Shown one piece after another: positions 1 to 57,334 of a DNA stretch of 64,000 nucleotides. A model generated the notes under the pieces. That model had not been told where the DNA came from and did no database searches. It saw nothing but the letters and a program-made list of their open reading frames with translations. Position numbers and translations under genes: made by a program. The stretch's first letter is position 1. Each line of letters opens with the position of its first letter. This stretch comes from Algibacter pacificus. GTDB lineage: Bacteria > Bacteroidota > Bacteroidia > Flavobacteriales > Flavobacteriaceae. The stretch covers positions 1 to 64,000 of the forward strand of contig NZ_VOGY01000001.1 in the NCBI RefSeq assembly GCF_008033385.1, in the 5' to 3' direction.

Positions 1-25
1 AACTGAAATGGATAACATCTCTTTT

Positions 26-85
26 TAGCCACGAATTCACGAATTAATGTGTAGTGTTAAGTTTGGTTTTAGGGATGTCACGAAT
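26..85 (+). repeat. Two-block dispersed repeat, copy 1
   Basis: Block 1 reads TAGCCACGAATTCACGAATT (26-45, continuing AAT) and block 2 reads ATGTCACGAA (75-84). The same two blocks recur at 36920-36941 and 36968-36977. In both copies 47 nt separate the GCC of block 1 from the first base of block 2, while the sequence between differs. Fixed spacing with a diverged middle suggests a structured or protein-bound dispersed element rather than chance similarity. The family is not known to me by name. Confidence 0.7.
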
Positions 86-302
86 CAAAAAAAGTGAATG
101 ACTTGACAGTCTTTTACTTTTTTTGGTTTAATGAAGTTTGGAATGATGTATAAGTCGTTTTTCGTATGGTTTATTTAATTTTTATGGAAAGGGAAAGTGT
201 TGTGTATTATACCATTTTAGGAGGTTGTTTGTTGCCTTTTTAGAATGAAGGTGGTATCTATTGCTACAACAGGACAGAAGTAGGTCTAAGGTTGGTTTAT
301 TT

Positions 303-475
303 CCTTGGCTGGTGGTTGCGGGAGCGATAGTAGTGGCATCCTTTTTACGAATGACTTTATGGTATTAATGGTTTAGAGACTTTGGTTAAGCACGATTATT
401 TATTGGCCAGTTGTAAATACACTCGTAAAAAGATATAACGGATAGCGCGGTTTTTATTTTTCTTAAAAACCCGCC
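303..475 (-). repeat. Long inverted-arm repeat, copy A
   Basis: The left arm (303-350) and right arm (423-475) match, in reverse complement, the two arms of the copy at 29469-29645. They include GGATAGCGCGGTTTTTATTT (440-459) and GTTGCGGGAGCGATAGTAG (315-333). The loop-proximal ends CTTTTTACGA (341-350) and TCGTAAAAAG (423-432) are perfect complements and would close a long hairpin over about 70 nt. The right arm holds its own small hairpin (GCGGTTTTT with AAAAACCCGC). It lies in noncoding DNA and is not an IS terminal repeat, as no transposase is present. Confidence 0.7.
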
Positions 476-29468: not shown

Positions 29469-29645
29469 GGGCGGGTTTTTAAGAAAAATAAAAACCGCGC
29501 TATCCGCTGTATCTTTTTGCAAAGCAGATTAATACATGTTTAGCGCGGTTTTTTATAATTAAAGGCGTTTTTATCCAAGGTTTTATACCTTAAAACTTTG
29601 CAAAAAGGATGCCGCTACTATCGCTCCCGCAACCACTTGCCAAGG
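29469..29645 (+). repeat. Long inverted-arm repeat, copy B
   Basis: The left arm (29469-29524) runs from GGGCGGGTTTTT through CGCGCTATCCGCTGTATCTT to CTTTTTGCAAAG. The right arm (29596-29645) starts with CTTTGCAAAAAG and continues GGATGCCGCTACTATCGCTC. The 12-nt ends facing the loop are perfect complements. Both arms match copy A in inverse orientation, but A uses the pair CTTTTTACGA/TCGTAAAAAG instead: different sequence, same pairing. It fills most of the 268-nt gap between the helicase and macroglobulin genes. Confidence 0.75.
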
Positions 29646-36860: not shown

Positions 36861-36918
36861 AACGCTTTTAAAGGGGGTAACTATACGCTTATATCTAGCT
36901 TTAACTTCTGTAAAGGTT

Positions 36919-36978
36919 TAGCCACGAATTCACGAATTAATTAGTACGGTTTTGTAATGTTTTCCGAATGTCACGAAG
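36919..36978 (+). repeat. Two-block dispersed repeat, copy 2
   Basis: GCCACGAATTCACGAATTAA (36921-36940) and ATGTCACGAA (36968-36977) repeat the two blocks found at 26-85 with the same 47-nt offset. It is followed by a small hairpin, GCTTACT-TTT-AGTAAGC (36978-36994). It lies between the convergent TPR and DUF6695-like genes. Confidence 0.7.
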
Positions 36979-40916: not shown

Positions 40917-40963
40917 AAAGTGATTCTGTTATAATAAGAAGTTGGATTTTAGTATGCAATTTT

Positions 40964-41019
40964 GAAAATAGAAAATAGAAAATAGAAAATAGAAAATAGA
41001 AAATAGAAAATAGAAAATA
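40964..41019. repeat. Heptamer tandem repeat, eight copies of GAAAATA
   Basis: Eight uninterrupted copies of the 7-mer GAAAATA, 48 nt after the pruA stop and immediately before the terminator hairpin. No spacers separate the units, so it is a microsatellite-like variable-number repeat, likely to expand and contract by slippage. It is outside any coding region. Confidence 0.92.
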
Positions 41020-41022
41020 GAG

Positions 41023-41057
41023 AAAAGAGAAATCAGTTTTTGATTTCTCTTTTTTTT
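41023..41057. terminator. Bidirectional intrinsic terminator between pruA and the methyltransferase gene
   Basis: Stem AGAGAAATCA (41026-41035) with TGATTTCTCT (41041-41050), extended by A/T pairs, flanked by an A-run on the left and a run of eight T on the right. It lies between convergent genes and could serve both. Confidence 0.75.
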
Positions 41058-54736: not shown

Positions 54737-56671
54737 TTAAAATGACTTTAAGGTCTTTTTAATTTCTTCTTTTATAATCTGCGAGAAGTCTTCAACGGAA
54801 ATCATTCCTAAATCTTCTCCACCATGTTGGCGTACAGATATTTTGTTTTCTTGTTCTTCTTGCTCCCCTATAATAATCATATACGGGTGTTTTTGCATTT
54901 CGGATTCCCGAATTTTTTTCCCAATAGTTTCATTTCTATGGTCTACAAGGGCGCGAATTTCGTGATTTTCTAGCAAATTTAAAACTTTTTCGGAGTATTT
55001 TTCATATTTCTCGCTAATAGACAAGATAATAACTTGCACAGGCATAAGCCAAAGCGGGAAGTTTCCTCCAGTATGTTCTAGTAATAAAGCTATAAAACGT
55101 TCCATACTGCCAAAAGGTGCACGGTGTATCATAACCGGGCGATGAAGCTCGTTGTCACTGCCTTTATAGGTTAAATTGAAACGTTCTGGTAGATTGTAAT
55201 CTGCCTGAATAGTTCCTAATTGCCATTTACGTCCTAAGGCATCTTTTACCATAAAATCTAGCTTAGGCCCATAAAAAGCTGCTTCGCCTTCTTCAATAAT
55301 AAAATCTAAACCTTTGTCGGTAGCCGCATTAATAATCGCTTGCTCGGCTTTTTCCCAATTGGCAACATCACCTATATATTTGTCGGGATTTTCAGGATCT
55401 CTTACAGAAACCTGAGCTGTAAAGTTTTCAAAGCCTAAAGATCCAAATACATAAAGCACTAAATCAATAACACTTTTAAATTCTTCATCCAATTGTTCTG
55501 GAGTACAAAAAATGTGAGCATCGTCTTGTGTAAAACCTCTAACACGGGTTAGACCATGGAGTTCACCACTTTGTTCGTATCTATAAACGGTGCCAAATTC
55601 AGCATACCTTACAGGTAAATCTTTATAACTCCATTGAAAGTTATTGTATATCTCACAATGGTGCGGGCAGTTCATGGGTTTTAACAAAAACTCCTCGTCT
55701 TCTTTAGGTGTCGTTATTGGCTGAAAGCTATCTGCGCCATATTTAGCATAATGACCAGAAGTAACATAAAGTTCTTTTTGTCCAATATGAGGGGTTACCA
55801 CCATTTCGTAGCCAGCTTTCTTTTGAGCTACTTTCAGAAAGTTTTCTAAACGTTCTCGTAAAGCAGCACCTTTTGGTAACCAAAGCGGCAATCCTTGCCC
55901 TACTTTTTGAGAAAAGGTAAACAATTCTAGTTCCTTACCTAATTTTCTGTGATCGCGTTTTTTAGCTTCTTCTAATAAGGCTAAATATTCTGTAAGTTCC
56001 TTTTGTTTCGGGAACGAAATAGCATAAACACGTGTTAATTGAGGTTTGTTTTCATCACCTCTCCAATACGCACCCGCAACACTTAATATTTTCACAGCTT
56101 TTATAATACCTGTGTTTGGTATATGTCCGCCACGGCATAAATCGGTAAACGTAGAATGATCACAAAAAGTAATGGTGCCATCTTCTAGGTTTTCAATCAA
56201 TTCCGTTTTAAACTCGTTGCCTTTGTATAATTCTAAAGCTTCAGCTTTACTTGCCGAACGCATTTTAAAATCATGCTTTCCGCGGGCAATTTCTAGCATT
56301 TTTGTTTCAACGGCTTTAAAATCTTTTTCAGAAACCGTTTCAGCACCAAAATCTACATCATAATAAAATCCATTTTCAATAGCGGGGCCAATAGTTAATT
56401 TAGCAGCAGGATAGAGTTCCTCGATAGCTTGCGCTAAAACGTGGGCCGAACTGTGCCAAAAAGCCGTTTTTCCTTCGTCGTCTTTCCAAGTGTATAAAAC
56501 TAGCGCTCCATCGGTCGTTAGCGGCGTAACAGTTTCAACCGTTGTACCATTGAATTTTGCAGAAATTACGTTTCTTGCAAATCCTTCGCTTATACTTTTC
56601 GCAACATCCATAGGTGTTACATGCTCTTCAAACGTTTTCACGCTGCCATCGGGCAAGGTAATGTGTATCAT
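54737..56671 (-). CDS. thrS: Threonyl-tRNA synthetase
   Basis: 644 residues from the ATG ending at 56671 ([20 protein letters not shown]). An upstream in-frame start at 56722 would pass through the promoter and was rejected. Domain order: TGS (1-61), editing/second additional domain with the metal-type motif [18 protein letters not shown], class II catalytic core with [29 protein letters not shown] (motif 2 region) and [14 protein letters not shown]. The C-terminal anticodon-binding domain is about 545-640 ([15 protein letters not shown]). It charges tRNA-Thr and edits Ser-tRNA. First gene of the infC-rpmI-rplT operon. Confidence 0.97.
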
Positions 56672-56693
56672 AAAATAAATTAAATTCTGTACG

Positions 56694-56724
56694 CAAAGAT
56701 AATGGTATAAACAAACCCACACAA
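56694..56724 (-). promoter_or_regulatory. Promoter of the thrS-infC-rpmI-rplT operon
   Basis: On the minus strand TTG (56724-56722) is followed after 20 nt by TATCTTTG (56701-56694), matching the Bacteroidota TTG/TAnnTTTG consensus with allowed spacing. The thrS start is 22 nt further, leaving a leader too short for a T-box or attenuator. Confidence 0.62.
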
Positions 56725-56757
56725 TATAATTTTGTGTATTATTTTATAGTTTTTTTT

Positions 56758-56921
56758 GGCGTTACCTAAAGGTCGGGCTTTACACTATATCTTTTCGCTA
56801 AGTTAGGTTTTTTTTTAGGTTATGTTATCTATAAAAGTACTAGGCTTATTCTCAAAAAAGATCTATTTCCAACTCGCAAAAAGGATGCCGTTGCAATCCC
56901 TAACGCGGGTGCTCGCTGATT
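56758..56921 (+). repeat. Long inverted-arm repeat, copy C (diverged)
   Basis: The left arm has GGTCGGGCTTTACACTATAT (56771-56790) then CTTTTCGC. The right arm has TCGCAAAAAGGATGCCGTTG (56874-56893) then CAATCCCTAACGCG. It shares the order and core motifs TATCTTTT and AAAAAGGATGCCG with copies A and B, in the orientation of B. The loop-proximal pairing (CTTTTCGC with GCAAAAAG) has one mismatch, so this copy is weaker. Confidence 0.6.
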
Positions 56922-57334
56922 AAATTACACTTGAATTGTACTTGTATTAACAGTTTTGTTATTTCCATCTACGGAAGAAATCACATAAAGAGTTGTCTTT
57001 TTGTTGTTCAAAATTATCAAATTTTTTCATGGCGTCGAAATAACATTTAAGCTGTTTTATTGCTAAATATGGATTAAACTATGAAAATAATTATAAGAGT
57101 GTTTTTAAAGGGAGATGAAGTGGGGTTTACTTGTTTTTTATAAGCTGTTATTTTTTTTAATTAAACTCATAATTCTATCGGAATTTAATAGAGCTGCTAT
57201 TCCAATCGGGGCCTAATTTTACCCAGTGAACGCTGTTATGTTGTTAAATAAAAAGAAACATTAAGTTAATGTATATAGCTCTAATTTTAACCATGTATTA
57301 ATATAAAAAGCACATGCACTTAATGTTGATACTA

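Follow-up and report, generated by a model that had tools for sequence, protein, structure and literature searches.

The window analysed here, the first 64,000 nucleotides of contig NZ_VOGY01000001.1 of Algibacter pacificus, holds long inverted repeats between genes and raises the question of what these repeats are and whether their pairing is under selection. The initial annotation had described conserved outer motifs around inner arms that differ between two copies (A and B) and stay self-complementary in each, had read this as selection on a folded DNA or RNA, and could name no function. A search with the Rfam covariance model RF01705 (gathering threshold 42 bits) scored copy A at 45.1 bits (match 303-456, +), copy B at 46.7 bits (match 29489-29632, -) and a third copy at 42.2 bits (match 56767-56925, -). 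The three inverted repeats are members of Flavo-1. The family itself is already known and its function remains without a name; the annotation was right in that no function can be given, but the element does have a name. The features of the three copies are compiled in Table 1.

Table 1. Flavo-1 copies in the window and their structural parts
Feature	Position	Strand	Remarks
Copy A, full element	303-475	+	Rfam match; from outer box CCTTGGC.. through P1 3' strand ..CCCGCC
Copy A, P1 5' strand GCGGG	318-322	+	pairs with CCCGC at 470-474
Copy A, inner arm 5' CTTTTTACGA	341-350	+	
Copy A, inner arm 3' TCGTAAAAAG	423-432	+	
Copy A, P2 side hairpin (GGTTTTTA..TTAAAAACC) plus P1 3' strand	445-474	+	
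Copy B, full element	29470-29645	-	Rfam match; orthologues upstream of PIF1 in G001-G004
Copy B, neighbouring genes		-	3' end of an alpha-2-macroglobulin gene; 5' end of a PIF1 helicase gene
Copy B, inner arm 3' strand	29513-29524	-	CTTTTTGCAAAG read on +
Copy B, inner arm 5' strand	29596-29607	-	CTTTGCAAAAAG read on +
Third copy	56753-56906	-	upstream of thrS (54737-56722, -); P1 GCGTT/AACGC, P2 GACCTTTAGGT

The outer motifs were indeed common to A and B (two 49-nt blocks, A versus B, 96% and 90% complementary to each other), and the inner arms were found where the annotation had placed them. Free-energy folding of copy A alone was unremarkable (z = -1.14 as DNA, -0.48 as RNA), and copy B folded as RNA gave z = -2.40. 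The inner arms of A and B are self-complementary and yet different, as had been described, but this difference alone is no proof of compensatory substitution, since A and B are paralogous and their loops unrelated. Stronger evidence comes from orthologous copies, which were sought in four Algibacter relatives (G001-G004, of which G001 and G002 are single-contig close relatives) of the window's own genome (G000; 4.17 Mb in 56 contigs). Upstream of PIF1, the strands of an outer helix read GCGGG/CCCGC in copy B, G002, G003 and G004, and GCGAG/CTCGC in G001.

RF01705 models 76 positions and comprises the main stem only. In the own-genome copies, conservation continued past the Rfam model on the left (GCGTTAGGGAT..) and on the right (..GCCCGACC-hairpin-GGTAACGCCC), and the outer strands co-varied (GCGTT/AACGC, GCATT/AATGC, GCGCA/TGCGC, GCATG/CATGC and GCGCT/AGCGC). 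New here is thus a covarying outer helix (P1) with a side hairpin (P2), both outside the Rfam model, which form a three-way junction with the main stem (P3) in Algibacter-type copies; P3 itself contains GNA/GGA-type internal loops and an exchangeable tip. In an alignment of 12 copies covering P1, P2 and P3, 98.8% of the cells were paired, both sides had changed in 11 of 20 pairs, and covariation was 0.456 versus 0.189 in shuffled and at most 0.113 in slid alignments; the count of further pair types lay below the shuffles and was equalled or exceeded in 497 of the 500. An extended covariance model of P1, P2 and P3 (R1), built from 12 copies of which 10 came from the own genome, was then fitted to 93 matches (26 from G001, 67 from G002). 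Here 97.5% of the cells were paired, 18 of the 20 pairs had changed on both sides, and covariation reached 0.460 (0.162 shuffled, at most 0.107 slid), a score attained by none of 500 shuffles; such fitting leans to the structure and may favour G.U pairs. When P1 was placed by sequence anchors instead of by fitting, which was feasible for 45 of 107 elements, each of its five positions was Watson-Crick paired in 38-41 of the 45 copies, and a shift by one base reduced this to 1, 5, 6 and 22 copies over four positions. Together with the compensation between orthologues, these values support the earlier proposal of selection on a folded structure. Elsewhere in the family, nine copies of two further genera (g28 and g31, probably Flavobacterium and its kin) carry a different shell (TTTAGCCCCGAT..CGGGAAATAGCTCC or near), in which by eye P1 is weak and P2 is not evident; the junction is therefore demonstrated for Algibacter-type shells and is not universal.

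The strand on which pairing matters was deduced from the mismatches. Among those lying between Watson-Crick pairs in 39 distinct inner arms, G.U occurred 11 times, A.C once and other combinations five times (p = 0.006; since orthologues are included, the counts are partly dependent on one another). Between the members of 22 orthologous G001/G002 pairs, a comparison that omits three module swaps, seven single G.U changes were found versus no single A.C change, besides two double Watson-Crick changes and five others. The 93 fitted matches gave 38 G.U versus 7 A.C in P3. By this excess of G.U over A.C, it is pairing on the Flavo-1 strand that matters in P3. P1 had no G.U excess (G.U 3 versus A.C 2 in the fitted matches; 1 versus 4 in the anchored copies) and gives no verdict on its strand. 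The asymmetry also bears on the notion that the palindromes were perfected by template switching (quasi-palindrome correction) without any selection. Near-perfect inner arms with copy-specific sequence around unrelated loops would fit such a process, but correction on double-stranded DNA is not expected to produce a mismatch strand asymmetry, the conserved unpaired internal loops persist, and the entire element lies between the two P1 strands, so that we regard this explanation as highly improbable.

Tolerance of G.U is also what an RNA would show. That Flavo-1 is a genuine structured RNA on the G.U-bearing strand, either a small RNA gene or part of a transcript, agrees with the mismatch asymmetry and with the Rfam type 'Gene; sRNA', and Table 1 of Weinberg et al. 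2010 marks the element 'RNA y, cis-reg n' (PMC2864571). For Flavobacterium psychrophilum, a published passage describes several 5' transcribed regions that coincide with Flavo-1 matches, but also states that matches occur indistinctly in sense or antisense and that many lie beyond transcribed regions (PMC9723704). The orientation of the copies in G002 agrees with the latter statement as worded there. The elements were distributed evenly over the strands (51 on +, 54 on -), and 88 of the 93 copies with enough flank overlapped a simple ORF call (≥80 aa) by at most 40 nt. Their neighbours (upstream, downstream) were oriented (-,-) in 33, (+,-) in 23, (+,+) in 21 and (-,+) in 11 cases; there was no sense bias to the upstream gene (44 of 88 sense). 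A sample of 30 own-genome copies gave 10 (-,-), 6 (+,-), 4 (+,+) and 6 (-,+), with 4 overlaps. Leading or lagging strand preference was likewise absent in G002 when the origin was assumed at contig base 1 (30 of 62 and 21 of 43 on +).

Pairing was equally kept in copies antisense to the upstream gene: among 63 copies, 0.53 of 20 pairs were broken when the upstream gene ran opposite versus 0.59 when it did not (p = 0.62). By neighbour class, G.U:A.C was 15:3 for (-,-), where the element is antisense to both neighbours and broken pairs were no more frequent, 6:1 for (-,+), 5:1 for (+,+) and 4:3 for (+,-), that is just 9:4 with a co-directional upstream gene. Promoters were sought with a TTG-N-TAnnTTTG-like sequence that we assume to be the consensus. 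On this assumption, 2 of 67 copies had a full promoter-like site directed into the element, and the three remaining directions gave 1, 7 and 0; the -7 motif by itself pointed at the element in 16 of the 67 copies, and the control directions gave 8 to 17. Orientation, antisense and promoter data argue against most copies being autonomous small RNA genes or mRNA elements, in agreement with the cited account of F. psychrophilum. By eye, a promoter-like motif seems to stand between element and start codon both at PIF1 (copy B) and at thrS (third copy), which would put the two elements ahead of these promoters; on this ground, and because other copies face the wrong way, a riboswitch-like 5' leader of the two genes was rejected. 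Taken together, an RNA nature of Flavo-1 appears rather unlikely to us.

A device acting at 3' ends, such as a terminator, an mRNA stabiliser or an insulator between genes, would account for a modest excess of convergent downstream genes in G002 (56 of 88, p = 0.014) and for stop codons of antisense ORFs within 15 nt of the 3' end of the element in 5 of 30 (G002), 6 of 22 (G001) and 5 of 21 (G000) anchored copies, and copy A follows an rRNA operon. By composition of the flanks of 111 copies, however, no consistent T-run follows the hairpin (CCCAAA and then mixed A/T), some genes have by eye their own terminator ahead of the element, and copy A itself lies beyond what looks like the 5S terminator. 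With half of the G002 copies antisense to the upstream gene as well, such a device is quite improbable.

Flavo-1 is abundant in these genomes. The own genome gave at least 40 RF01705 matches at E ≤ 1e-3, at least 14 of them over the cut-off, with 150 of 1043 candidates scored; this list contains copy A and its relatives on contigs C9 and C6 as partial 30-bit matches, and copies B and the third copy are absent from it. R1 recognised 105 places each in G002 and G001 at E ≤ 0.01 (99 and 104, respectively, at E ≤ 0.001). RF01705 gave at least 30 in G002 and at least 33 in G001 at E ≤ 0.001, from candidate numbers that differ from those of the R1 search, and 43 copies in G003. The further copies, which the annotation had named as the test of its proposal, thus exist and have complementary inner arms. 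RF01705 matched 20 of 31 relatives and none of 14 control genomes, and a survey of the phylum gave matches in 38 of 247 genomes, of which 21 belong to the window's family, 3 to the rest of its order, 10 to the rest of its class and 4 to the rest of the phylum. Copy B had no match among plasmids, and a phage search returned one weak, partial match, for copy L037. A 21-base shell pattern matched 13 viral contigs of IMG/VR (L329-L341), and R1 confirmed the element in all 13. In five of these, no more than about 400 bases separate it from an end of the available sequence; such elements could represent prophage borders or host flanks.

The positions of the copies proved to be largely stable in the samples compared. 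At 25 of the 30 best-scoring G001 copies a G002 copy was aligned (22 on both flanks, 3 on one flank). A comparison of 30 own-genome copies with the fetched G002 loci, which took in part of the G002 places, gave 15 with both flanks, 5 with one flank, 9 with none and 1 short repeat match. Copy B is orthologous in all four relatives. R1 found counterparts of the third copy upstream of thrS in G001 and G003; the one in G004 is visible by eye and had no R1 score at E ≤ 0.01, and no match was returned for thrS of G002. As a side observation, a second copy of the thrS 5'-end piece with its Flavo-1 element was present in G003 (C5:41282-41528, L358) as a duplicated segment; the contamination estimate for G003 is 7%.

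These data allow one to weigh a mobile family of the ERIC, BOX or MITE kind, with a transposase now lost or unrecognised and with movement ongoing. The 105 dispersed places in each of G001 and G002, the preponderance of convergent over divergent sites in G002 (23 versus 11, p = 0.058), sets of equal-scoring copies in G003 and the 13 viral contigs point in this direction, as does one locus that is occupied in G000, G001 and G003 and empty in G002 and G004. The candidate empty site at this locus, however, showed neither a clean insertion nor a target duplication; among the own-genome copies compared, identity of at least 95% over the whole element was confined to the set linked to rRNA operons, and most copies have the G002 counterparts described above. 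Such a family, still on the move, is unlikely in our view; vertical descent would hold the copies mostly at fixed places.

What differs between copies is the tip of P3. We distinguish, with type names of our own, type 1 (ATCC-T-run..A-run-GAT), type 2 (AAGCCCACAG..GCGAGGACTT), type 3 (TAGCTTTTGGCGAGGCG..GAGCCAAAAC) and type 4 (GAACGG..GTTTGAGC..GCGAGTAGTGA); further kinds occur too. All three window copies have a long type 1 tip, and copies with type 2 or 3 score 30-40 bits with RF01705, under the threshold of 42. The 54 type 1 bodies extracted by pattern, orthologues included, measured 20-29 nt (n = 10), 46-51 nt (n = 6) or 87-99 nt (n = 38), and the inner module of copy A (window 342-431) is one of them. 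Comparison of the 38 long loops between loci revealed no obvious common sequence; a weak common motif scored 205.7 versus at most 168.3 in 24 mononucleotide shuffles. Folding of 31 long loops revealed no conserved structure in them (mean z = -0.46 for the Flavo-1 strand and -0.72 for its complement).

At fixed places the module itself can differ. This was the case for three of 25 orthologous G001/G002 pairs (L290/L218, L295/L240 and L296/L248) and for L031 versus L129/L130. At the thrS locus the tip is a long type 1 in G000, a short type 1 in G003 and a type 4 in G001 and G004. These in-place differences suggest that inner hairpin modules are exchanged between copies, probably by conversion among dispersed shells; independent loss and re-insertion would be an alternative route to the same pattern. 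One may go further and regard Flavo-1 as a locus-stable 'socket', in which a conserved shell (P1, P2 and the base of P3) stays at the same intergenic sites in different species while the inner hairpin is replaced as a cassette by another module class (type 1 in its three sizes, or types 2 to 4), through exchange of folded single-stranded DNA between dispersed copies. We consider this speculative and on balance unlikely; if true, cassettes would be exchanged with neither an integrase of the integron type nor any known transposase.

The surroundings of copies A and B suggest a relation to rRNA operons. Contig C23 is an rRNA operon, and its 5S end overlaps window 1-95 exactly. On the basis of this contig overlap, rather than of reads, copy A probably lies about 345 nt downstream of the 5S rRNA, beyond a terminator as judged by eye. 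Copies similar to A start contigs C9 and C6 and end contig C7, and the homology among these four ends within about 10 nt of position 475, the 3' edge of the element. This edge had raised the idea that copy A terminates a larger transposon on its 3' side; the idea was rejected because the shared sequence upstream belongs to the rRNA operon. Recombination between copies of the element would suffice to account for the edge. In G003, a Flavo-1 copy follows three of four strong 5S loci, with flanks diverging past the 3' edge, and the fourth (L141) has none. No copy was found in flanks of up to 1.5 kb at the three 5S loci each of G001, G002 and G004; matching pieces occur about 1.4 kb past one 5S of G002. 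Elsewhere in the own genome (contig C3; L026 and L027), two similar Flavo-1 copies are bordered upstream by repeated GTCATTTCGACG.. units, and the homology there likewise ends just beyond the element 3' edge.

Of 49 PIF1 loci in other Flavobacteriaceae (L150-L193), 22 have the 5S 3'-end motif no more than 700 nt ahead of the gene; for 29 of the 49, the sequence available ahead of the gene was shorter than 700 nt. The synteny of rRNA operon and PIF1 is conserved in the Flavobacteriaceae. R1, run on 21 of the 49 loci, detected copies in L148, L149, L158, L168, L188 and L189, two of which are Algibacter; between the 5S motif and PIF1, the elements of L159 and L167 look complete by eye, and those of L151, L166, L184, L187 and L191 look like relics. 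Since the 5S motif and Flavo-1 copies or relics precede PIF1 in other genomes, copy B probably sits at an old junction of rRNA operon and PIF1. Its other flank in G000, the alpha-2-macroglobulin gene, is a rearrangement breakpoint, and Flavo-1 copies may act as endpoints of rearrangements.

The initial annotation had suggested looking for a REP-associated tyrosine transposase (RAYT). The Y1 domain PF01797 matched 13 of the 31 relatives, and 12 of these 13 also carry Flavo-1 (Fisher p = 0.008, uncorrected for kinship). Eight of the 20 Flavo-1-bearing relatives had no PF01797 match at E ≤ 0.001, including G001 (33 copies) and G003 (43 copies). In 30 of the 42 listed Y1 loci, examined for up to 1.5 kb on each side, no Y1 gene was flanked by two inverted copies, and the loci together contained a single element, on one side; RF01705 run on 15 of these loci returned the same single element. 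For G010, the genome with most Y1 matches, four of its 14 were included. A GTAG-type head was absent from the 5' foot, where the column consensus of 111 copies is GCGTTAG. With one element near 30 Y1 loci and eight of 20 Flavo-1 genomes lacking Y1, a RAYT is unlikely to be the mobiliser: it is unsupported by flanking and not required by presence, though presence correlates.

Comparison with known systems delimits the element further. Flavo-1 as found here has the sequence and main stem of RF01705 (Weinberg et al. 2010), with the three window copies above threshold; unlike the Rfam entry, Algibacter-type copies add P1 and P2, and the label of a small RNA gene is not supported by our data. Small mobile sequences of the ERIC and BOX type are about 100-170 nt long, intergenic, modular and foldable. 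By this description Flavo-1 resembles them in size, intergenic place, modularity and foldability, but its positions are largely kept between the species compared. With REP/BIME elements, as characterised in a passage of PMC2817692, it shares imperfect palindromes, high copy number, intergenic location and mosaic modules, and the same passage reports selection for complementary mutations. It differs from the REP/RAYT system in lacking a GTAG-type head and, in the 30 loci, a flanked Y1 gene, and from REP in its size of about 80-160 nt with a three-way junction. A 2025 paper (PMC12306157) gives high numbers of REP in two species of Flavobacterium, and its figures may include Flavo-1 elements.

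We therefore give an even chance to the interpretation that Flavo-1 works like a REP/BIME-type element, vertically inherited and folding on one strand, though outside the RAYT-REP family. According to this REP/BIME-like interpretation, Flavo-1 would be a dispersed structured intergenic element of which one strand folds into the P1, P2 and P3 junction. The folded, strand-specific site would most likely form in single-stranded DNA exposed by replication or transcription, where a putative host protein could bind it.

Flavo-1 has been a candidate noncoding RNA of unexplained function since 2010, and it is abundant in many flavobacterial genomes; a paper giving a function of the repeat was not found among the top-ranked open-licence PMC results. 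With the extended model, the test for strand asymmetry and the module differences found in place, the question 'RNA or DNA?' becomes testable, and our results suggest revisiting type and boundaries of RF01705.

The window contains two further repeats. Another dispersed repeat (TTTAGCCACGAATTCACGAATTAAT..) occupies positions 24-84 and 36917-36977 and occurs also on contigs C2 and C4, and a short tandem array of GAAAATAGAAAATA units extends from 40950 to 41038.
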